A stretch of 64,000 nt of DNA, taken from NCBI GenBank assembly GCA_016786585.1, contig JAEUUI010000006.1:124001-188000 (forward strand), written 5' to 3'. Both the position numbers and the translations under genes were made by a program. Under the pieces are notes generated by a model, which was not told the DNA's origin, searched no databases, and worked only from the letters and a program-made list of their open reading frames with translations. This stretch comes from Cyclobacteriaceae bacterium (GTDB lineage Bacteria; Bacteroidota; Bacteroidia; Cytophagales; Cyclobacteriaceae). Positions 1 to 29,133 of the stretch are shown in pieces (the stretch's first letter is position 1; every line of letters begins with the position of its first letter).

Positions 1-299
1 GGATCGCGTTTTAATTGTCGTTTTAAGTAAGCCTGGGCTTCCGCTGTTTCATTAAGATCCAGCAGGGTGTTTAAATAATTATTATGGATGAAGGGTATAT
101 TAATTTCATCTTTAGCAAGATCACGGTAAACTTCAACCGCTTTTTTCTTGTCGCCTTTTAAAAGGTATTCATTCGCAAGTTGTATTTCCGATTGATTTTG
201 CGAGTAGGTTGTAACGCCTGAGAGAATAAGAAGCATACACATGGGTATAGCCCTTATTATTAATGTATTTATATATATATTATAATTATTATTAGTCAT
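1..299 (-). CDS. TPR-type secreted protein, 5' part only
   Basis: An open frame enters from the left edge and begins at the ATG at 297-299; its C-terminus lies outside the window. After a hydrophobic stretch (CMLLILSGVTTYSQ) that looks like a signal peptide, the visible part is helical with TPR-like spacing (LANEYLLKGDKKKAVEVYRD, then LLDLNETAEAQAYLK). A TPR scaffold exported to the periplasm is the likeliest reading; no specific role can be named. The first 19 codons are extremely AT-rich and encode mostly Asn, Ile and Tyr. The true start may instead be the ATG at 240-242, which would leave the AT block non-coding. The gene is transcribed away from the DnaA-box cluster on its right. Confidence 0.7.
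   Translation of the reverse strand, partial: MTNNNYNIYINTLIIRAIPMCMLLILSGVTTYSQNQSEIQLANEYLLKGDKKKAVEVYRDLAKDEINIPFIHNNYLNTLLDLNETAEAQAYLKRQLKRD
254..299. other. AT-rich block, candidate DNA unwinding element
   Basis: Nearly every base is A or T, with runs of alternating TA and repeated ATT triplets. It abuts the first DnaA box at 307. It overlaps the annotated 5' end of the TPR gene, whose first 19 codons may therefore not be translated. Confidence 0.5.
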
Positions 300-306
300 G
301 TTGAAA

Positions 307-315
307 TGTGTATAA
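307..315 (-). other. DnaA box TTATACACA
   Basis: Exact match to the consensus TTATNCACA on the minus strand (TGTGTATAA on plus), immediately beside the AT-rich block. Confidence 0.6.
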
Positions 316-414
316 CTCTAGCCGCGCATGTCTTGTTTAGATCGTGTGAAATGGTTGTTTACAGTAATCTTCAATTAATCAGTTAGTTAGAACAATATCA
401 ACAATTTTTCTGAG

Positions 415-423
415 TGTGGATAA
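415..423 (-). other. DnaA box TTATCCACA
   Basis: Exact match to the strongest known DnaA box on the minus strand (TGTGGATAA on plus). Single-mismatch boxes follow at 456-464, 543-551 and 565-573. Confidence 0.65.
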
Positions 424-542
424 AAGACGTGTTGATTAAACGTAATGTTTTGATGTGTGGTTAAGTCTCGTTTTACCAACACTCAACCTATCGTTTTTCG
501 CGTTTTATGAAAATTGAAGGAAAATGTGGGGTTCTGCTTGAG

Positions 543-573
543 TTGTCCACACCGTCTTAATAAGTTATCAACA
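543..573 (+). other. pair of near-consensus DnaA boxes
   Basis: TTGTCCACA (543-551) and TTATCAACA (565-573) each differ from TTATCCACA at one base and have the opposite orientation to the boxes at 307 and 415. The second lies inside the last codons of the Ig-like lipoprotein gene. Confidence 0.45.
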
Positions 574-2266
574 GAGGTCCTAACGTCCAGTTGGCCTTTA
601 GTGAAATGTCTTTTATTCCTTTTGGATTGTGGTAATAGATAATCGGCTCCGGTTCGGTTTTAGTTGAGAAGTTACCAGGATCCCATTTCCCGTTGTTGTT
701 TAGATCTGCAATTAGCCGAAGCTGATATGTTTCGGGTGGCAGGTTTTCGAATGCAAACTTTTTCTGGTTTCGAACTTCATAAACAAGTTTACCCGTTTTT
801 GTTACAAGTTGGACGATGAAGTTGCTATTCGTTTTTACTTCTGCTTCAACAATCGCGGTTGACTCGAGTGTAATGTATTTTATTGGGGTGTTCAAGATTC
901 CCGAAGAATCCCCTTCCACTGAGATAAAAGTTTTTGGACGGGCTATCATTTGAGTAATTGCAGGCGATGCAGGTATCGGTTTGGTTGGTTTTGCGATTTG
1001 TTCTTTGCCGGCATTTTCTTTTATCCCGGGTCGCTTCATCGCAGCGGTGTCTTTTGGAAAGAGCCTGGTGAGATCGATTTTTTTACTAATTGTTAATCGT
1101 GTTTTGTTCTCGTTCCATGAGAAGTCGGTTGTTGCGAAAGGCAATTGCGTTAGTGAATCGATTTCAATGTAAATGCTGTCCGGATTGAATGTGGCAATTG
1201 GTTTGGCGAATGTTAGCTGAGCCGAGAGAATAGAATTGTTTTCATTGGCGTTTGCATACGTTATTCCCGCGGTGAACTTGTCTTTCGTTGCGTCTTTCTT
1301 AGGGAACTTGACGTACAGGAGGGTATCTACTGTAAAGTTCATACTGTCGACAGCATGGACCCTTACGCGAATGCTGTCAAGCGAAGGAAAGGTGTTAAAT
1401 ATTTTTAGTGTTGTCAGATCGGTTTCAAGAATCGAATATACTTGGGTTGAACTGTCAACTGCTGACAGGCTAAATTCCTGAAGGCTCTTTGAAAACCGCA
1501 GGTTGTAATATGCAAAGGTTTGTCTTGCGGTCATTAGCTTTAGCGGAGTGAGGTCAGCTTTGAATGTCCGGATTACCAGTGAGTCAAGGTTTTTTGTAAG
1601 GTCCAGGGGTGTTGATATGAAACCATAGGTTTCGGATTTACTGTCGACCAGCATGTTTTTGCTTTTGTCATTAAAGGCGTAGAGGAAGTACTTACCGGGC
1701 TTCAGGTTTTCCAGAGCAAACTTTCCTTTCTTATCGGTTTGCGTGATCCAGGATGCCGGGTGTTTGAAAATGTTGAAGGTGTCTGATTGTTCGGCCAGTG
1801 CAACGGTGTAACTCTTTGGAGGAATTTCTGAAATCGCGTCAATTATTTTTCCGGTGATTTTTAGCGAGTCGAGGTATGTACCGGTACTGAATGCAATTTT
1901 TTCATTAGCCGGATTTTTTTCTGTGAGATCCTGAACGGCTTCCCGTAGGTTAACGGTATAGGTTGTATTGGCCTGCAGGCGTTGCTTTAATTGTATCGTT
2001 ACTCGGTTCTTGTTAAAGGTTACTTCAAAGTCTTTTCCAACGCTGGGTGTTATAATAATCTGTTCGCGCGGATTGTTTAGCTGAATTGGTTCATCAAATG
2101 ATAGTTCAATTCTGTCTCCCTGAAAATTTACCTGTTTGTGTTTAGGAAACGAGGCTCTTAGTTTCGGAGGAGTTTCATCTTTTGGTCCACCGGTAGGGGC
2201 CGTTTGTTTGGCACACTGCAGCATGACAAAACTGATAGTTAAAAAAGAAAGTAGTCTCAGTTTCAT
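557..2266 (-). CDS. Ig-like domain lipoprotein (SbsA Ig-like/Big_5 type)
   Basis: A 569-residue predicted lipoprotein. A hydrophobic signal ends in the lipobox VMLQC with the acylated Cys at residue 18. GGPKDETPP (26-34) then opens the Big_5-type Ig-like domain that characterises a large Bacteroidota family. The rest is beta-rich, with a probable carboxypeptidase-regulatory-like repeat around TGKIIDAISE and another near the C-terminus (LRLIADLNNNGKWDPG). It is presumably anchored in the outer membrane; no enzymatic residues are evident. Its ATG overlaps the stop of the upstream methyltransferase by 4 bp, so it is translationally coupled as the last gene of the leftward mnmG operon. Confidence 0.8.
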   Translation of the reverse strand: MKLRLLSFLTISFVMLQCAKQTAPTGGPKDETPPKLRASFPKHKQVNFQGDRIELSFDEPIQLNNPREQIIITPSVGKDFEVTFNKNRVTIQLKQRLQANTTYTVNLREAVQDLTEKNPANEKIAFSTGTYLDSLKITGKIIDAISEIPPKSYTVALAEQSDTFNIFKHPASWITQTDKKGKFALENLKPGKYFLYAFNDKSKNMLVDSKSETYGFISTPLDLTKNLDSLVIRTFKADLTPLKLMTARQTFAYYNLRFSKSLQEFSLSAVDSSTQVYSILETDLTTLKIFNTFPSLDSIRVRVHAVDSMNFTVDTLLYVKFPKKDATKDKFTAGITYANANENNSILSAQLTFAKPIATFNPDSIYIEIDSLTQLPFATTDFSWNENKTRLTISKKIDLTRLFPKDTAAMKRPGIKENAGKEQIAKPTKPIPASPAITQMIARPKTFISVEGDSSGILNTPIKYITLESTAIVEAEVKTNSNFIVQLVTKTGKLVYEVRNQKKFAFENLPPETYQLRLIADLNNNGKWDPGNFSTKTEPEPIIYYHNPKGIKDISLKANWTLGPLLITY

Positions 2267-3147
2267 GAATGCTGTGCTATATAGATAAGGCTTGAATAGT
2301 TGTCAGACCCGGCAGCTGCGTTTGATTTCAGGCCAGATAGAAATCCCTTTGCCATAGTTGCCACAGATGTTTTTGTATTGCTGCGGTAATTTTCACTAAG
2401 CATGCTTACATAAAAAGCATCCAGCTTCATTGGAACAGTTTTTCTTAAGGTCAGCCCGTTAGAGTTTAAAAGCTGGGCCATGCTCTTTTTCGAAAAATGC
2501 CAAAGATGCCGGGGTACATCAAAGCCTGCCCATAGGTTGCCATACTGTTCAGCATCGGTAGATTCATAATTCGGAACAGCAATAAATATAGTGCCATCTT
2601 TTTTAAGATGTTCTTTCAACGTGTTGATCGTATATACGAGATCCGGAACATGTTCTACGACATGCCAGGCAGTGATGATATCGTACGTATTTTTAATTGT
2701 CTCGAGTTCGGAGTGTATTTTCTGACTGGTATTTTCTTCCGCTTTTTGTCGTGCTACTGGCGAGGGTTCGATACCCTCGACCGCCCACTTGTGTTTTTTA
2801 AGAGTCGCAAGAAACTCACCGGTTCCGCAACCAAAGTCTAGTGCTAACCCCGGCTTGCTGTAGGTACCGACAAGCTTCGCTTTTTGATTGAGTGCAAAGT
2901 TGCGGGCTGTTTTATAAAGCGGGCCCATGAGCCCAGAAGATTTTCCGGAATGGGAGATGTATTCTTCCGACAGGTAATAGTCGCCAAGTTTTTCCGTTTC
3001 CGGCCTGGGAGTGGTTATCGCGAGCGCGCAGTTTTCACAACGAACTACCTGAAATGTTTCATGTGAAACAGTAAAATCCTGACAAGTTCTGAAAGGTACT
3101 AAAGACCGGCTTTGGCAAACCGGGCATTCATTGATATCCACCATCAC
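2263..3147 (-). CDS. class I SAM-dependent methyltransferase with N-terminal zinc ribbon
   Basis: A 294-residue protein. Two CxxC pairs (Cys 8/11 and 37/40) form a small zinc-binding module of the kind found before C-methyltransferase-like proteins. The Rossmann methyltransferase domain follows, with SAM motif I ALDFGCGTGEFL (101-112) and a later motif around ITAWHVVEHV, typical of the Methyltransf_23 group. The substrate cannot be read; many relatives act on sugars or cell-envelope metabolites. It overlaps mnmG upstream (ATG at 3145-3147, mnmG stop at 3144-3146) and the lipoprotein downstream by 4 bp. A parS-like palindrome sits inside its 5' coding region. Confidence 0.85.
   Translation of the reverse strand: MMVDINECPVCQSRSLVPFRTCQDFTVSHETFQVVRCENCALAITTPRPETEKLGDYYLSEEYISHSGKSSGLMGPLYKTARNFALNQKAKLVGTYSKPGLALDFGCGTGEFLATLKKHKWAVEGIEPSPVARQKAEENTSQKIHSELETIKNTYDIITAWHVVEHVPDLVYTINTLKEHLKKDGTIFIAVPNYESTDAEQYGNLWAGFDVPRHLWHFSKKSMAQLLNSNGLTLRKTVPMKLDAFYVSMLSENYRSNTKTSVATMAKGFLSGLKSNAAAGSDNYSSLIYIAQHS
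3055..3070. other. parS-like ParB binding site 1
   Basis: TGTTTCATGTGAAACA matches the widely conserved parS consensus TGTTTCACGTGAAACA at 15 of 16 positions. The site lies within the methyltransferase coding sequence; intragenic parS sites are usual in other bacteria. Confidence 0.7.
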
Positions 3148-5006
3148 TTGCCAAGATAGATAGTTAGGATGGAAATGTCGGCAGGCGACACTCCACTGAT
3201 GCGGGATGCCTGGCCGATGGTTTCGGGGCGGATTTTTTTCAATTTTTCCCTGCCTTCGGATGAAAGCGCTTTTACCCGATCGTAATCGAAGTCAGGAAGG
3301 ATTTTATACGTGTCTAAGCTTCCGATTTTTTCGGCCAGCTTTTGTTCGCGATCAATGTAGCTTTCATACTTCACGCCAATCTCAACTTGTTCCTGTATCT
3401 CCTGCGAATATTTGTCAAAGATTGCTGCGATTTCAGGATTGATGGCTTTGAATTCCGACAAGCCAATTTGCGGGCGCCTCAGTAAATTAACTGCAGCAAC
3501 CTTCTCCTGTATTGTAGATGTGTTCAGATTTTCAAGTCCTGCATTTACGGTTTCCGGCTCTACTTTAATTTTCGTTAATTCTTCGGTAAGTCGCTTAATG
3601 TCGTTTCGTTTGTCGATCAGTTTTTCCAAACGGGTATCATCAGCGAGTCCAAGTTTGTGGCCCATTTGAGTTAGTCGTAGGTCGGCATTATCCTGACGTA
3701 GCAGAATTCTGTACTCCGCGCGCGAGGTAAACATTCGGTAAGGTTCCTGGGTACCTTTGTTTACGAGGTCGTCAATCAACACACCGATATACGCATCCGA
3801 TCTTTTTAAAATAAAGGGGTCTTTCTCATGTACTTTGTTATGGGCGTTAATTCCGGCCATAAGTCCCTGACAGGCAGCCTCTTCATAGCCAGTCGTGCCG
3901 TTGATCTGACCTGCAAAATACAGATTATCAATTAGTTGCGTTTCTAATGTAAGCTTTAGCTGCGTTGGCGGAAAGAAATCATATTCGATTGCATAGCCAG
4001 GCCTGAACATCTTAGCATTTTCAAAGCCCGGGATTTTTCTCAGAGCCTCGTGCTGTACATTTTCAGGTAGAGACGTTGAAAACCCGTTGACATAAATTTC
4101 AACGGTGTTCCAGCCTTCAGGCTCAACAAAGATTTGATGTCGGTCGCGTTCAGCAAAGCGATTGATCTTATCTTCAATCGATGGGCAGTATCTCGGGCCG
4201 AGCCCTTTAATACGTCCGCTGAACATGGGGGACTTTTCAAATCCTTCTCTCAATTCAGCGTGTACACTTTCGTTGGTGTAGGTTATCCAGCAGCTCACTT
4301 GTTTTTCAAGAGGCTTGGTCTCGGAGTACGAAAACTTTCCGGGTTTCTCGTCACCAGGCTGCTCTTCCATTTTCGAATAGTCGAGCGAGCGACCGTCAAC
4401 TCTTGGAGGTGTTCCGGTTTTCATTCGCCCGGATTCAAATCCCAGAGAGACGAGTTGTTCAGTTAGCCCGGTTGCAGATTTCTCACCCGTTCGCCCTCCG
4501 CCAAAGTTCTTTTCACCGATGTGGATTTTTCCATTCAGGAAGGTACCGTTTGTTAGAACTACAGCCTTTCCTTTTATCTCCAGTCCGAGGGCGGTTTTTA
4601 TTCCAACCGCTCTCCCATCCTTTACAAGAATCTCTTTGGCCATTTCTTGCCAGAAGTCAACATTGGGAATGGCTTCGAGGGCTAATCGCCATTCTTCGGC
4701 AAACCGCATTCGGTCATTTTGTGTACGGGGGCTCCACATTGCAGGACCTTTCGACATGTTGAGCATCCGGAACTGAATCATGGATTTGTCTGACACAATT
4801 CCTGACTGTCCGCCCAGCGCATCTATCTCCCGTACAATTTGACCCTTTGCCACACCCCCCATCGCAGGGTTACATGACATCTGGGCGATGGTGCCCATAT
4901 TCATAGTCACTAACAGGACTTTCGAGCCCATTTTGGCAGCGGCAGCAGCAGCCTCACAGCCGGCATGTCCGGCCCCAACAACAATTACATCGTATTCTGG
5001 TAGCAT
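3144..5006 (-). CDS. mnmG: tRNA uridine-34 carboxymethylaminomethyl modification enzyme MnmG
   Basis: MnmG (GidA) works with MnmE to install the cmnm5 group on U34 of several tRNAs, using FAD, NADH, methylene-THF and glycine. The protein (620 residues from the chosen start) shows the FAD-binding GAGHAG at 11-16, the signatures GGGRTGEKSATGL and GPRYCPSIEDKI, and a C-terminal helical domain that binds MnmE. The ATG at 5004-5006 gives the canonical N-terminus MLPEYDVIVVGAGHAG; a longer reading from 5051 would run through a parS-like site and DnaA-like boxes and is unlikely. It follows ybeY and precedes the methyltransferase. gidA genes often flank replication origins. Confidence 0.97.
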   Translation of the reverse strand: MLPEYDVIVVGAGHAGCEAAAAAAKMGSKVLLVTMNMGTIAQMSCNPAMGGVAKGQIVREIDALGGQSGIVSDKSMIQFRMLNMSKGPAMWSPRTQNDRMRFAEEWRLALEAIPNVDFWQEMAKEILVKDGRAVGIKTALGLEIKGKAVVLTNGTFLNGKIHIGEKNFGGGRTGEKSATGLTEQLVSLGFESGRMKTGTPPRVDGRSLDYSKMEEQPGDEKPGKFSYSETKPLEKQVSCWITYTNESVHAELREGFEKSPMFSGRIKGLGPRYCPSIEDKINRFAERDRHQIFVEPEGWNTVEIYVNGFSTSLPENVQHEALRKIPGFENAKMFRPGYAIEYDFFPPTQLKLTLETQLIDNLYFAGQINGTTGYEEAACQGLMAGINAHNKVHEKDPFILKRSDAYIGVLIDDLVNKGTQEPYRMFTSRAEYRILLRQDNADLRLTQMGHKLGLADDTRLEKLIDKRNDIKRLTEELTKIKVEPETVNAGLENLNTSTIQEKVAAVNLLRRPQIGLSEFKAINPEIAAIFDKYSQEIQEQVEIGVKYESYIDREQKLAEKIGSLDTYKILPDFDYDRVKALSSEGREKLKKIRPETIGQASRISGVSPADISILTIYLGK

Positions 5007-5012
5007 AATTTT

Positions 5013-5028
5013 AGTTCCACGTGGAACT
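5013..5028. other. parS-like ParB binding site 2
   Basis: AGTTCCACGTGGAACT is a perfect 16-bp palindrome whose core GTTCCACGTGGAAC is a well-known variant of bacterial parS. It lies just upstream of the mnmG start. Confidence 0.75.
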
Positions 5029-5054
5029 TGGTGTATTCCACATTTCCACAAGCT

Positions 5055-5063
5055 TTATCCACA
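5055..5063 (+). other. DnaA box TTATCCACA upstream of mnmG
   Basis: An exact consensus DnaA box, preceded by two further TTCCACA motifs (5036-5042 and 5044-5050) and flanked on both sides by parS-like sites. It may bind DnaA as a secondary cluster or regulate mnmG. Confidence 0.55.
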
Positions 5064-5068
5064 GTGAA

Positions 5069-5084
5069 CGTTTCACGTGGAACG
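5069..5084. other. parS-like ParB binding site 3
   Basis: CGTTTCACGTGGAACG is palindromic except for one base pair and combines the two known half-site variants GTTTCAC and GTTCCAC. It lies between the mnmG start and the ybeY stop. Confidence 0.65.
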
Positions 5085-5086
5085 GC

Positions 5087-5509
5087 TTACTTCAGCAAAG
5101 ATAGGCAAGCATCCTCTTTTTCGCGCATCGCGGTTTTTTCTGCCTTTGTCTTATCGTTAAAGCCAAGCAGGTGTAAAACCCCGTGAATGATTACACGGTT
5201 CAGTTCGGTCGGGAAATCTGTCTGGAAAGTTTCAGCATTCTCGCGAACGCGATCGACACTAATATAGATTTCACCTTCAATTTCCGTTTTGGAGGGATTG
5301 TAATTGAAAGTGATAATGTCAGTGTACGTTCTATGCTTCAGAAACTGAATATTCATTTCGCGGAGGTACTCATCCGTACAGAAAACATAATTCAGCGATC
5401 GGAGGGATTTACCCTCCTTCTTGATCACCTTTCGTATCCAGGTGGATGTTTTAACAGGATTTTTGAGCTTGAAGCGGGGCTTCTGGGAGAAATAACTAAT
5501 CCCCGCCAT
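5087..5509 (-). CDS. ybeY: endoribonuclease YbeY (rRNA maturation)
   Basis: YbeY is a metal-dependent RNase involved in 16S rRNA 3'-end processing and ribosome quality control. The 140-residue protein has the expected GEIYIS strand (79-84) and the metal site HGVLHLLGFND beginning at His109. The usual third ligand of HxxxHxxxxxH is Asp119 here; as I recall this is common in the phylum, so I do not read it as inactivation. The start overlaps the stop of the upstream ATP-binding protein by one base (TGATG), indicating coupling. mnmG follows after an 80-bp gap holding parS-like and DnaA-like sites. Confidence 0.92.
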   Translation of the reverse strand: MAGISYFSQKPRFKLKNPVKTSTWIRKVIKKEGKSLRSLNYVFCTDEYLREMNIQFLKHRTYTDIITFNYNPSKTEIEGEIYISVDRVRENAETFQTDFPTELNRVIIHGVLHLLGFNDKTKAEKTAMREKEDACLSLLK

Positions 5510-5913
5510 CAGGAATTCATGTAGAAACTCAATTCTACCGTTTTTCCGTTTTCACGGAATTCAACTTCGTCTGAAAGGTGTTTCATCAGAAATATTCCAC
5601 GACCGCCCGGCTTCTCCAGATTTTCAGGTGCGGTTGGATCGGGCAGAAGTTCATAGTTAAATCCCGGCCCCTCGTCCTTTACAATAAACTTCAGAAGATT
5701 GTCATGCAGCGTAAGGCTCAGGAATACATTTTTAGCAGAGTTCCCTGCATTGCCGTGGCGGATAGCATTGTTCACGGCTTCTGTAACCGCGATCATGATG
5801 TTTCCATAAAGATCTTCATCCAGGTGAAAACGCTCTTTCGCGTTATCAATAAAACTCTCAATCATCCGAATGTTTTCAACAATTGAGGGAATCTGGATAC
5901 TTATGGTGTTCAT
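5509..5913 (-). CDS. RsbW-like anti-sigma/serine kinase ATP-binding protein
   Basis: A 134-residue stand-alone GHKL ATPase domain. The N-box EAVNNAIRHG (45-54), G1 box DEGPGF (80-85) and G2 region GGRGIFLM (103-110) are intact, so ATP binding is expected. Relatives (RsbW/SpoIIAB) are switch kinases that sequester sigma factors and phosphorylate STAS anti-anti-sigma proteins. No partner gene lies nearby, so the target is unknown. It sits 5 bp after the DUF4175 gene and one base into ybeY, inside the same leftward operon. Confidence 0.85.
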   Translation of the reverse strand: MNTISIQIPSIVENIRMIESFIDNAKERFHLDEDLYGNIMIAVTEAVNNAIRHGNAGNSAKNVFLSLTLHDNLLKFIVKDEGPGFNYELLPDPTAPENLEKPGGRGIFLMKHLSDEVEFRENGKTVELSFYMNS

Positions 5914-5918
5914 CTCTT

Positions 5919-8900
5919 TTATTTATTGCCTATCCGCTTGAAGTATTCACTTACCTCCTTCTTATAGTAAGGAAACAGCTTGGGCGGTACGGTTTTTAAC
6001 AATTCTACTTCTTTTTCCTTTAAACGTAAATATTCTTCAACTGCAGGCGGAATTTCTTTTTCGTGATCTTTCGCGGTCTCTCCTTTTCGTTTGTCATCCA
6101 GATCCTGTTCGCGCATTGACTTTTCTGATTCGAGTAGCCGCGTGAGAATTTCCTTTTGCCGTTCGATCAACTTATCTGTTAACTGCTTGTTCACTAGTTC
6201 TGTTTCGGTTTCTTCCATTTTTTGTGAAAGATCTCCGCCCGGAAGCTTGCCGCCATTTTCATTTTTCATTTTCTCCTGCATCTCTTGCAGCGCCCTGCGA
6301 ATTCTTTCCTGCTCTGCAGCCATCTCAGCAAGTTCTTCCGATAATTCGCGACCCTGTTTACCGCTACCTTTTAATTCTTCAATTCGTTGATTTAGCTGTT
6401 GCTGCATTTGACCGAGACTTTGCTTTCCGCCTTTCGATTTTCCTTTTCCGGGTTTAGCATTTTTCATCATTTCCATCATCTGATCGAAATGACTGTCGAG
6501 CATCAGCGCAAGATTATTAATAGCGGTCATACTGAATTGCATCTCAGTTGATGCCTGCTGGCGTCTGCGTTCCTTGTTGGCTTCAATCACCTTATCAACC
6601 CGGGTGTTGAGTTCTGTAACTTCGCGCGTCACGAAGGAACTCATCATTGCGTCCTTTTTACTAAGCTCTAATAAGCTGTCTTCCAGCACTTTAATATCAT
6701 CTTTCAGTTTAAGTTGCTGTTGTGCGAGCACGTTAAAGCGCGGATCATTTTGTTCCAGCTCACGGAAATTTTTGATCAGATTTTCCTGGTCGAATGAAAT
6801 TTTAATCAGGCCATGAACAATCTGCCGCAGCGACTCCAGATTCTGCATCTCCATTTCCATCTGCATGGAATTTTGAGAATCCTCCATTTGTTGCTGCATT
6901 TGCTGCATTTGTTGAATTGCCTTTTTCTGCGATTCTTTTGCCTTCGAAGGTGAATTTTGCTTTAGGTTTTGCTCACTTTCCTGCTGCGATTTTTCAACGT
7001 TTTCCGACTTTTCCTTTTCAGGTGCCCCATTTTCATTCAATTCTTTGCCCAGTTTTCTTAATTCTTCGAGTTTTTCCTCCGTTTTTTTGAAGTTTTCACT
7101 CAATTTTTGCTGCTCTTTTGCGAGCTCCTGGCTCTTTTCTTCTTTCGACTGAGAGCCGGACTTGTTTTCACTCTCTTTTGACTGCTCGCCAGTTTTGTCA
7201 CTATTTTTTGAATCCTCCTTTTTCGAATCGCCTTTCTGATTCTTATCTCCGGACTCCTTTTCATTCTTGTCCCCGGATTCTTTCTTGCCGGACTTCTCCG
7301 ACTGCTTTTCTAGCTCTTCGGTTTTTTTCTGCAGCGCCTCCTGGGCCTCCTTCTTTTCTTTTAGGTCGGCAATTGCCTGCTCAAACTTGTAGTCGTACTG
7401 CAATTGTTTGAAGAGTTCGAGTGTACGCTCAAGTTCCTTCTCAAGATTTTTCGAACTTTGATTCAGCTTGTCTAGGTTCCGCTGGAGCTGTTGCGGATCA
7501 TTTTTTTCTCGCAAGAGTTTCTCAAGCTCTTCCATTAACTTCTTTGTTTCATCATCCAGCAACTCATCCATGAGTTTCTGAATCTGTTCGGCCTTCTCGC
7601 GAAGGCGCTCGTCTTGCTCGGTGAAAGTTTCCTTCTTTTGTTCGAGAAGTTTGTTCTGCTCTTTCATCTGGTTGATCATCTGATCGAGCTTCTTTTTCTG
7701 TTCGAGGATGTTTTCAATTTTCTTTTCATCCTGCCAGTCGAGCGACTGCTTGCCTTTCAGCTTCTGGTTCAGATCTTCAACCTGTTTCTGAAATTCATCG
7801 GCCTTTTTCGCGCTTTGTTCAATCTTGCTTTCTGTTTGCGATTGGGTTTTCGAAATATCCGTCACCAGCTGATCCTTGTCGGGGATGAAAAATGTGTACA
7901 TCGCGGAGCGCGTGGACTTACGTCCGTTAACGCCATCGTTATCCCACGTCTGTAAAAAATACTCAAGTTGCTGGCCGGGTTTAAGGCTGAGTGTATCCAG
8001 GCTCCAGTTGTAAAAGAAACTTTGCTGCTGCTGATTGTAGGAAACAGGAATGTTGACGGTACGCTGCGTGATTATTTTTTGCTGCTCATCTTTCACGTGA
8101 AACTGGAGGCTCAATTGTGTGATGCCATAATCATCGGCAGTGATACCGCTCAGAATAATGCGCTTGTATAAAACAGAGTCTCTGAAATTATTGATCGTAA
8201 GTTGGGGGTACTGATCTTTGATCACATCAACCGCATAGAAAATCCTGTCTTTGTTCTGGCTTTGTTCATTTCGCAGAAAAACCTCGTATTGGTCGGGGTT
8301 ACGAAATTGACGAGAGTGGATAAATGATTGATTATCAGTTAATTGAAGATCTATTTTCGAACTGTCGGAAGCGAAGATCATCGAAACACTGGTCGCATTG
8401 GCCGTGTTGAGCCGCCACGTGACTAATGTGCCTTCCGGAATTTCCAGGTTGCCGGCATTAATCAGTCGTTCATTTTTCCGCTGAAGATATTTTGGGTATT
8501 GAAGTTCAATCCCCAGCTGAGTTAGCTCGGGCCGATTAGCCAGCGTGATTTCGAAATTACCCGAATAATATCCGGCTGCTTCGAGCTGAAAAGATTTTGG
8601 CTGCTGAAGTTTTTCAAACGTGTATTGAAACAATCCCGCCTGAAGCGTTTCCATCTTCAGGTGCTGGCTGCCAATTACTAGATATGCTTCCTCCGGTACC
8701 GCATCGCCTTCCAGCGATAGTCGGAGCGTAAAATCTTCATTGAAGAAGCCAATCAGATTTTTGTTCTGAATATTAAAGTTGAAGGGTGCCTGTGGTGAAT
8801 ACTGCTGATTAAAATTGACGATTCGTGTGGCACTTTGTGTAATGATCGTTTTGTTGATTAGCAGGATAACCAAAATTATCCCGACAGGAATTGCCAGATA

Positions 8901-9359
8901 CTTCAGGTATTTGCGGTTGTCGTTGATGCGAATCACCGATTCGAATTCTACAGGTTCGAACTCCCGTGACTTTTGTAAAATGCTTGCCTGCGCCAGACCT
9001 GAATCACTCACAGCTGAAAGCTGGATAAGATTTACCAGCCGGTCTTTTATGTTCGGAAAATAATTGCCGATCAGGCGCGCACCCTGTTCGTCATTCAACC
9101 CCCTTTTAGAAATAAGATAGGTGAGCGGGTCTTTAAAAAATCTGAATCCGCAATACACGACCAACCCGAAGAAAATAATCAGAATCAAAAGCCGTCCCCA
9201 GGTTCTGAGCCAGAGTACACATTCAAGCACGGCAGCTGTTAGAAAATATGCGACTAAAATGGAAAGCGTAAACAGGATTCCGCGAATGAGCAGGTTCAGG
9301 TAATACCTTCTCTTAAAGGAATTGATTTTCTTTTGGATCCGCTCAATACCGTTCGCCAT
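5919..9359 (-). CDS. large DUF4175-family coiled-coil membrane protein
   Basis: About 1146 residues from the ATG at 9357-9359; an in-frame TTG nine bases upstream is less likely. The N-terminus has two closely spaced membrane segments (roughly residues 22-72) and a third near 155-175 (LAIPVGIILVILLI). Next comes a large beta-rich region that I take to be periplasmic. From about residue 510 onward it is mostly Glu/Lys/Gln-rich coiled coil, with a low-complexity segment rich in SGDKNEKE-type repeats. This architecture fits the DUF4175 family, which is common in Bacteroidota and has no established function. A mechanical or scaffold role at the envelope is plausible but unproven. A parS-like site lies within the gene. 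Confidence 0.85.
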   Translation of the reverse strand: MANGIERIQKKINSFKRRYYLNLLIRGILFTLSILVAYFLTAAVLECVLWLRTWGRLLILIIFFGLVVYCGFRFFKDPLTYLISKRGLNDEQGARLIGNYFPNIKDRLVNLIQLSAVSDSGLAQASILQKSREFEPVEFESVIRINDNRKYLKYLAIPVGIILVILLINKTIITQSATRIVNFNQQYSPQAPFNFNIQNKNLIGFFNEDFTLRLSLEGDAVPEEAYLVIGSQHLKMETLQAGLFQYTFEKLQQPKSFQLEAAGYYSGNFEITLANRPELTQLGIELQYPKYLQRKNERLINAGNLEIPEGTLVTWRLNTANATSVSMIFASDSSKIDLQLTDNQSFIHSRQFRNPDQYEVFLRNEQSQNKDRIFYAVDVIKDQYPQLTINNFRDSVLYKRIILSGITADDYGITQLSLQFHVKDEQQKIITQRTVNIPVSYNQQQQSFFYNWSLDTLSLKPGQQLEYFLQTWDNDGVNGRKSTRSAMYTFFIPDKDQLVTDISKTQSQTESKIEQSAKKADEFQKQVEDLNQKLKGKQSLDWQDEKKIENILEQKKKLDQMINQMKEQNKLLEQKKETFTEQDERLREKAEQIQKLMDELLDDETKKLMEELEKLLREKNDPQQLQRNLDKLNQSSKNLEKELERTLELFKQLQYDYKFEQAIADLKEKKEAQEALQKKTEELEKQSEKSGKKESGDKNEKESGDKNQKGDSKKEDSKNSDKTGEQSKESENKSGSQSKEEKSQELAKEQQKLSENFKKTEEKLEELRKLGKELNENGAPEKEKSENVEKSQQESEQNLKQNSPSKAKESQKKAIQQMQQMQQQMEDSQNSMQMEMEMQNLESLRQIVHGLIKISFDQENLIKNFRELEQNDPRFNVLAQQQLKLKDDIKVLEDSLLELSKKDAMMSSFVTREVTELNTRVDKVIEANKERRRQQASTEMQFSMTAINNLALMLDSHFDQMMEMMKNAKPGKGKSKGGKQSLGQMQQQLNQRIEELKGSGKQGRELSEELAEMAAEQERIRRALQEMQEKMKNENGGKLPGGDLSQKMEETETELVNKQLTDKLIERQKEILTRLLESEKSMREQDLDDKRKGETAKDHEKEIPPAVEEYLRLKEKEVELLKTVPPKLFPYYKKEVSEYFKRIGNK
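8089..8104. other. parS-like ParB binding site 4
   Basis: TCTTTCACGTGAAACT matches the parS consensus TGTTTCACGTGAAACA at 14 of 16 bases; the inner 12 bp TTTCACGTGAAA are a perfect palindrome. It is inside the DUF4175 gene. Confidence 0.6.
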
Positions 9360-9453
9360 CCTGACCAAAGTTTAAACTAAAAACGAATGTGCCTTCTCTA
9401 AAGATACAGGCTAATTCATTTTTCGGCAAAGCGATTGGTATGGAAGGGTAAGA

Positions 9454-28548: not shown

Positions 28549-29133
28549 ATGGATTTCCTTCAAAATCATATTGAGGCATTAATCTTCTGTTCACCTACTC
28601 CGATTAAAGTGAGTGAGATTAAAGCTTGCCTTTCGGAAATGTTTAATGCCGATGTTCCGGAAGAAGATATTACCAATGCAATCATTCGCATCGACGAAAA
28701 ATTCAACCAAGATGAATTTTCATTTCAGTTAAGCCGTGCAGCTGGTGGCTACCAGTTTTTAACCAAGCCAGCGTATCAGGCAAGTATCGGTATCATGCTG
28801 AAGCAACAATCGAAAAAGAGATTGTCGACTTCTGCCATGGAAACACTTTCCATTATTGCCTACCGTCAGCCAATCTCTAAAACAGAAATTGAAAACATTC
28901 GCGGAGTGAATTGCGACTATGCTGTTCAGAAGTTGCTTGATAAACAATTAATCGAAATCACCGGAAAAGCCGATACGATCGGTCGTCCGATGCTGTACGG
29001 AACAACAACGAAATTCATGGAGTACTTCGGCATTAACGACATCAGCGAACTGCCGGTGCCGAAAGACTTCACAGGCGATATTAACATCATCGGAGAAAGC
29101 ACAGACTTAAAAGAACCGGATGCCCAGGCGTGA
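28549..29133 (+). CDS. scpB: segregation and condensation protein ScpB
   Basis: ScpB with ScpA and SMC forms the condensin that organises the origin region; in many species SMC is loaded at ParB-parS. The 194-residue protein has the two winged-helix domains of the family, with LSTSAMETLSIIAYRQPISK and GRPMLYGTT as hallmarks. The terminal 14 bp overlap the pseudouridine synthase gene (ATG at 29120), a pairing (scpB-rluB) found in many bacteria. The candidate parS cluster is 20-26 kb away. Confidence 0.93.
   Translation: MDFLQNHIEALIFCSPTPIKVSEIKACLSEMFNADVPEEDITNAIIRIDEKFNQDEFSFQLSRAAGGYQFLTKPAYQASIGIMLKQQSKKRLSTSAMETLSIIAYRQPISKTEIENIRGVNCDYAVQKLLDKQLIEITGKADTIGRPMLYGTTTKFMEYFGINDISELPVPKDFTGDINIIGESTDLKEPDAQA

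Follow-up and report, generated by a model that had tools for sequence, protein, structure and literature searches.

The 64,000-nucleotide stretch of Cyclobacteriaceae DNA analysed here (GenBank assembly GCA_016786585.1, contig JAEUUI010000006.1, positions 124,001 to 188,000; hereafter the window) carries four parS-like palindromes grouped around the gene mnmG. We propose that, with high probability, these palindromes serve this Bacteroidota (Cytophagales-type) chromosome as its parS centromere, at a distance of 2.5-7.8 kb from what its sequence marks as the likely replication origin. The initial annotation had located parS-like palindromes at 3055, 5013, 5069 and 8089, two of them inside genes; all four are present there, the first within a methyltransferase gene and the last within a DUF4175-like gene. 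The sites and the genes that surround them are as follows.

5013 to 5028: candidate parS site 1, AGTTCCACGTGGAACT, a perfect palindrome, separated by 6 bp from the assigned start codon of mnmG, on its upstream side
5069 to 5084: candidate parS site 2, CGTTTCACGTGGAACG, in the gap between ybeY and mnmG, 2 bp past the ybeY stop, with a counterpart in genus-mate G088
3055 to 3070: parS-like site 3, TGTTTCATGTGAAACA, in the methyltransferase gene, over codons V-S-H-E-T
8089 to 8104: parS-like site 4, TCTTTCACGTGAAACT, in the DUF4175-like gene, over codons F-H-V-K
5055 to 5063, plus strand: an exact DnaA box, TTATCCACA, flanked by the two leader sites, found also in G088 at 311301
3144 to 5006, minus strand: mnmG/gidA, encoding a tRNA-modification enzyme (PF01134, TIGR00136), its start assigned inside a longer TTG frame
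5087 to 5509, minus strand: ybeY, encoding an endoribonuclease (PF02130)
2263 to 3147, minus strand: the methyltransferase gene (Methyltransf_23, PF13489)
5919 to 9368, minus strand: a gene carrying site 4, whose large product matches DUF4175 weakly, short of the family cut-off (PF13779)

The likeness to parS holds, as the four palindromes, in order of position, agree with TGTTTCACGTGAAACA at 15, 12, 13 and 14 of 16 bases. As to the accompanying claim that a random 64-kb sequence should contain almost none, at up to 3 mismatches the window has 3 matches versus 0.46 expected, and 1 of 100 shuffles equals it, so that the excess in the window alone is no more than suggestive. Decisive is the scan of the whole draft genome (4,186,351 bases in 30 contigs, 95.95% complete, the window lying in contig C5) with GTTYCACGTGRAAC. 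Allowing one mismatch, this pattern has 4 matches in the draft genome, which are the four palindromes of the window and span 5.05 kb, and its reversed control has 1. An equal density of such motifs across the genome had been named as grounds to abandon the idea, and the density is not equal, every near-exact site found in the draft genome falling in this 5.05 kb. Scans with the variant patterns at up to two mismatches gave the sites at 3055 and 8089 and no others genome-wide for TGTTTCACGTGAAACA, and for TGTTCCACGTGGAACA the site at 5013 together with one site in contig C14 that has no CACGTG core.

Two of the sites, 5013 and 5069, share the 80-bp gap between ybeY and mnmG, that is, the mnmG leader, whereas 3055 and 8089 are genic, at distances of 1.9 and 3.1 kb from where mnmG starts. 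The initial annotation was silent on this leader location, on its conservation and on the likely oriC at 307-573. We examined the 80 best mnmG loci from a MnmG scan of named genomes, 1.59 Mb in all, and found 124 exact copies of GTTYCACGTGRAAC, every one of them (124/124) between -700 and +50 of mnmG. Of the 80 loci, 59 have one or more exact copies in the 700 bp that precede mnmG, and when a relaxed pattern is counted as well, 66 of 80 have a parS-type palindrome within 250 bp upstream. Across 39 whole genomes, 71 exact copies occur in 35 (control, 3), in one cluster per genome that is at most 10.4 kb wide, and the cluster is at mnmG in 27 of these 35. In four Hymenobacter-type genomes the single parS lies 28-32 kb from mnmG (4/4), and in three Saprospiraceae-type genomes and in G038 the cluster is away from mnmG. 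In G038, although mnmG has been relocated, one of the four sites is still close to the ybeY match, some 25 bp from where that match ends. Three of the four single-contig relatives have exact sites, all of them at mnmG. A phylum-wide draw of 61 genomes gave a similar picture. Among the loci of the mnmG matches that ranked highest, 30 in number and including that of the window, 28 carry a site (27 exact, 1 relaxed), placed either in the leader or downstream of mnmG at a distance of up to about 0.6 kb. Judged from these genomes, parS and mnmG are deeply linked but with exceptions, and this favours a role as centromere in the first place and as an mnmG element in the second.

Some features of the leader sites differ among lineages. 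In seven loci of Dyadobacter, Larkinella and Fibrella (L054, L055, L058, L062, L063, L065, L073) one leader site carries the same one-base change, TTTCCACGTGGAAC, which suggests a lineage-specific variant of parS; a paired change in ParB was sought and nothing was evident in the one such ParB that was aligned (L140). Neighbouring leader sites (L018-L097) favour spacings of 36-38 and 43-47 bp (39 of 56 intervals), perhaps reflecting helical phasing. At L161:9775 (Hymenobacter BT18) and L216:3357 (a more distant member of the phylum), parS stands at the start of an open frame and would encode the N-terminus MFHVEHF or MDFVSRET, the latter frame being RsmG-like by eye.

The position of the sites in most relatives, within about 200 bp upstream of mnmG, would also suit operators for a regulator of mnmG with no centromere at all, as would the motif TATCTTTG, which occurs at most 60 nt before the first leader site in 26 of 59 loci versus a background of 0.0025 per 60 nt. 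We regard this explanation as very improbable, since the sequence is that of parS in a genome whose ParB has the parS-reading residues, the Hymenobacter-type sites are tens of kilobases from mnmG, the G038 site stays near ybeY with mnmG elsewhere, other phylum members have the site downstream of mnmG, and two of the four sites of the window are genic and kilobases from the mnmG start. Still less credible is a role of the leader palindromes as hairpin structures of the mnmG mRNA. The RNA fold of the window's leader does beat shuffled sequences (z -3.1; 1 of 200 as good), an outcome that is partly automatic for palindromes, yet at the variable pair C-A, which breaks RNA pairing, outnumbers T-G, which would keep a wobble (37/124 vs 15/124), and this disfavours a hairpin. 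The invariance of the central CACGTG is fixed by the search pattern and is no evidence on this point.

A centromere at mnmG could do a second task. The motif TATCTTTG agrees with TAnnTTTG, the -7 element of Bacteroidota promoters. We rejected it as proof that a promoter is present, because the last residues of YbeY (C-L-S-L) are encoded by these bases in the window. Its place before the first leader site makes interference of ParB with mnmG transcription possible. ParB control of mnmG would explain why parS has stayed by mnmG in much of the phylum despite distant parAB. Leader sites of this bifunctional kind would stand just downstream of the likely mnmG promoter and flank the DnaA box. The idea that such a box belongs to the leader in general was discarded, as it is found in the window and in the genus-mate and is not visible in most other leaders inspected. 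That ParB bound at the leader also controls mnmG transcription, and so couples modification of the tRNA wobble uridine to origin copy number and segregation, is a speculative and on balance unlikely extension of the centromere.

The two genic sites require separate consideration. In genus-mate G088 five sites are found genome-wide at up to one mismatch, four of which are the counterparts of the window's four and one of which lies elsewhere; such counterparts make it probable that the two genic sites are real too. The same 14-mer is present at the same codons in G088 for site 3055, and the counterpart of site 8089 differs at one base of the 14-mer. All codons that lie fully within the sites are unchanged (4/4 at 3055 and 4/4 at 8089), whereas codons at conserved residues are retained in 55 of 140 cases in the methyltransferase gene and in 296 of 706 in the DUF4175-like gene, and with residue-specific rates from the same two genes the expected product for the eight unchanged codons is 0.0013. 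In the methyltransferase gene only 1 of 284 start positions opens a run of four identical codons, this one being site 3055 itself; in the DUF4175-like gene 27 of 1092 do. Both genic sites look selected. Further away, no site was found at the codon position of 3055 in the 64 more distant relatives that have the methyltransferase, and the idea of an ancient site there was rejected; nor was there one near the position of 8089 in the 80 named loci. In L031 and L049 a near-parS is found slightly beyond the 3055 position, by a few codons. One may therefore ask whether only the two leader sites are parS, the matches at 3055 and 8089 being chance products dictated by protein sequence. Both do lie in coding frames, neither recurs at its codon position in more distant relatives, and one-mismatch sites do arise by chance, as the three in the G088 control indicate, but 3055 and 8089 are the sole other one-mismatch sites of the genome, neither is more than 3.1 kb from the leader, and their counterparts in G088 keep all eight contained codons. 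We consider a chance origin improbable on this evidence and retain all four sites as a candidate centromere.

A centromere of this kind is expected to be served by ParB. The initial annotation supposed that, with no parAB in the window, the sites would be served in trans, and indeed the one ParB-family gene that we found in this genome is on contig C7 and adjoins parA (parA and parB at C7:8300-9076 and 7386-8303). The usual, though not defining, linkage of parS to parAB is therefore absent here, the two being on separate contigs. In the seven relatives that have parB and the parS/mnmG locus on one contig, the two are also far apart: 0.30 Mb in G041, 0.80 in G068, 0.88 in G096, 1.14 in Hymenobacter BT18, 1.20 in G027, 1.81 in Litoribacter and 2.24 in G072 (the last measured from mnmG). 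R173 and G201 contact parS and are absolutely conserved in ParB, according to PMC7383237. The helix-turn-helix of the native ParB reads GKNR...MGHAR and keeps both the GKxR arginine and the MGHAR glycine. These two residues were equated with R173 and G201 through the motif shared with solved ParB/Spo0J proteins and not through an alignment with Caulobacter ParB. A different consensus for the native ParB, the other ground on which the idea was to be given up, is not indicated by these retained residues. All 39 relatives have a ParB above the cut-off, and the equivalent residues are kept in 30 of 30 of their ParBs that were aligned.

The condensin partners are present as well: SMC is encoded on contig C13, and ScpB in the window, where scpB lies 20.4 kb from the sites, in accord with the roughly 20 kb given before.

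28549 to 29133, plus strand: scpB, encoding a condensin subunit (PF04079)

SMC exceeds its family cut-off in 5 of the 8 genomes tested, Hymenobacter BT18, G068 and G096 being without. The combination in G030, G068 and G096 of a kept ParB with no SMC above the cut-off recalls the Bacteroidetes without known condensin described in PMC10197239.

The remaining question is whether an origin is nearby. Counting DnaA boxes at up to one mismatch to TTATCCACA along contig C5, we found the densest 500-bp cluster of this contig at window positions 307-573, with 5 boxes in 267 bp, next to an AT-rich stretch. The elements of this end of the window, with the remaining genes, are:

307 to 573: candidate oriC boxes, at 307 (minus) TTATACACA, 415 (minus) TTATCCACA, 456 (minus) TTAACCACA, 543 (plus) TTGTCCACA and 565 (plus) TTATCAACA
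240 to 310: candidate DNA-unwinding element, 79% AT, abutting the DnaA-box cluster, with TAATAATAA after the last box
1 to 299, minus strand: 5' end of a TPR-like gene (label by eye) of 638 codons that extends left of the window
557 to 2266, minus strand: gene of a Big_5 domain protein (PF13205), between oriC and the methyltransferase gene
5509 to 5913, minus strand: HATPase_c_2 gene (PF13581)

The cluster and the AT-rich stretch (240-573) are 2.5 kb from the nearest parS. Of the 80 relatives, 48 have a cluster of at least five boxes, in every case 3.9-5.5 kb downstream of the mnmG start; in 74 of the loci the sequence reaches 5.5 kb or more downstream, and all 48 are among these. In genus-mate G088 the five-box cluster is 4.4-4.9 kb from the mnmG start. 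With 200 permuted motifs the mean was 0.18 of 80 loci, and the lone value above 1 (24) was given by the original motif displaced by one base. Placing the origin instead at dnaA, which is on another contig of this genome, or at parAB was rejected, as the densest count in the 20-kb stretches holding each was 1 box per 500 bp. In 20-kb bins the GC skew of C5 is negative in all 7 that lead from the contig start up to this region and positive in 14 of 16 rightward, and the cumulative minimum falls at window 15.6 kb for GC (7-13 kb from parS) and at 18.1 kb for AT. In relatives, where skews are weak and were sampled at 20 stretches per genome, the agreement is mixed: the distance from the skew origin to mnmG is 0.2% of genome length in G068 (permutation p 0.065), 3.1% in G096 and 8.7% in G072, and on the main scaffold of Litoribacter the skew changes sign somewhere from the first stretch to 90 kb, with parS at 172 kb. 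Based on the box cluster we consider 307-573, with its AT-rich stretch, a likely oriC.

The likely unwinding element overlaps the start of the TPR-like gene (240-315). The ATG of this gene follows the last DnaA box by 7 nt, and the N-terminus encoded by the AT-rich bases is rich in Asn, Tyr and Ile; a few close relatives are similar. As a general feature of origins such a TPR-like start over an AT-rich element was discarded: 15 of 49 pass a loose test, and among those 15 only five have the AT-rich TPR-like start (the window, L021, L022, L024 and L025), with L018 and L019 similar by eye.

Several observations weigh against, or limit, the case for a centromere beside an origin at this place. In the draft genome, 30 scattered matches to TGTTTCACGTGAAACA appear at 3 mismatches versus 19 in the control, so that looser scans hide the cluster and clustering is seen at strict thresholds only. 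Of the 80 mnmG loci, 14 have no leader site even with the relaxed pattern, and 4 of the 39 whole genomes are without an exact site, although three of them have a one-base variant in the mnmG leader. The fourth, G022 (L064, Adhaeribacter rhizoryzae), has ParB, no exact parS in its genome and no such variant in the leader. The single-contig relative G072 is also without an exact site and has only a relaxed one, in the leader. The control pattern in G088 gave 3 matches against 5 real ones at up to one mismatch, which makes one-mismatch sites alone weak evidence in that genome, and the positions of 3055 and 8089 are conserved no further than the genus-mate. As for the origin, 26 of 74 loci have fewer than five boxes, some with four at the same place, and no DnaA-box cluster was found near mnmG in G068, G072 and G096; the oriC part thus applies to a portion of the relatives. 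In the complete genome of Hymenobacter BT18 the formal skew optimum is 18% of the genome from parS, although the local sign does flip at parS. At the mnmG locus of G022, the only near match is a one-mismatch site within mnmG itself.

The candidate centromere is nevertheless supported by the uniqueness of the cluster in the draft genome, the conservation in the mnmG leader, a ParB with the parS-reading residues and the nearby origin signature, and its origin-proximal position is given by sequence signatures, namely the DnaA-box cluster and the skew. Our best reading is an ori-proximal centromere of a ParABS-SMC system whose parAB lies elsewhere, as it does in seven relatives (0.3-2.2 Mb off). 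We infer ParB binding and spreading, SMC loading, segregation and origin firing here by analogy. ParB from the unlinked parAB on contig C7 would load at the two strong leader sites and at the two weaker genic ones, presumably as a CTP-dependent clamp that slides outward; ParA would then move the ParB-DNA complex, which probably helps to load SMC-ScpAB (ScpB and SMC are identified here; ScpA was not searched for), so that the freshly copied origin would segregate first. The steps of loading, sliding and action of ParA and SMC are modelled on known ParABS systems as described in PMC7333895 and PMC7022226. Less expected than the centromere itself are the anchoring of parS to mnmG and the possible control of mnmG by ParB.

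These results offer a testable address of centromere and origin for a group whose segregation is little studied. In Cytophagales-type genomes, parS may be sought in the mnmG leader and oriC 3.9-5.5 kb downstream of the mnmG start; here dnaA, a common marker of the origin, is on a different contig. The split of parS from parAB, together with patchy SMC (3 of 8 tested without one above the cut-off), provides a useful comparison for the cooperation of ParB with condensin. We found no report of parS at mnmG in Bacteroidota, nor of its separation from parAB or of the steady distance to a DnaA-box cluster, in a search by titles and abstract openings that left most subscription journals outside.

That parS is near the origin in Bacteroidota has already been reported, for Bacteroides caecimuris by Hi-C, with the parS cluster at the skew-defined origin and an origin that is not always near dnaA (PMC10197239). 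The present genome resembles that one in being a member of the Bacteroidota with a parS cluster beside the likely origin, and differs in having SMC and ScpB, as no known condensin homologue was found in the two Bacteroidetes of the study; mnmG is unmentioned in the parts of that paper that were consulted. Bacillus subtilis Spo0J-parS and Caulobacter ParB-parS are alike with our case in the type of palindrome, in several copies near the likely origin, in the parS-reading residues of ParB and in the SMC and ScpB that are present here; unlike in those systems, parAB here is not beside parS. Escherichia coli is not known to have parABS. Its oriC lies between mioC and gidA/mnmG (PMC4446571), and an origin near mnmG is thus common to both, although the DnaA-box cluster here is about 4.4 kb past the mnmG start, beyond the methyltransferase and Big_5 genes.

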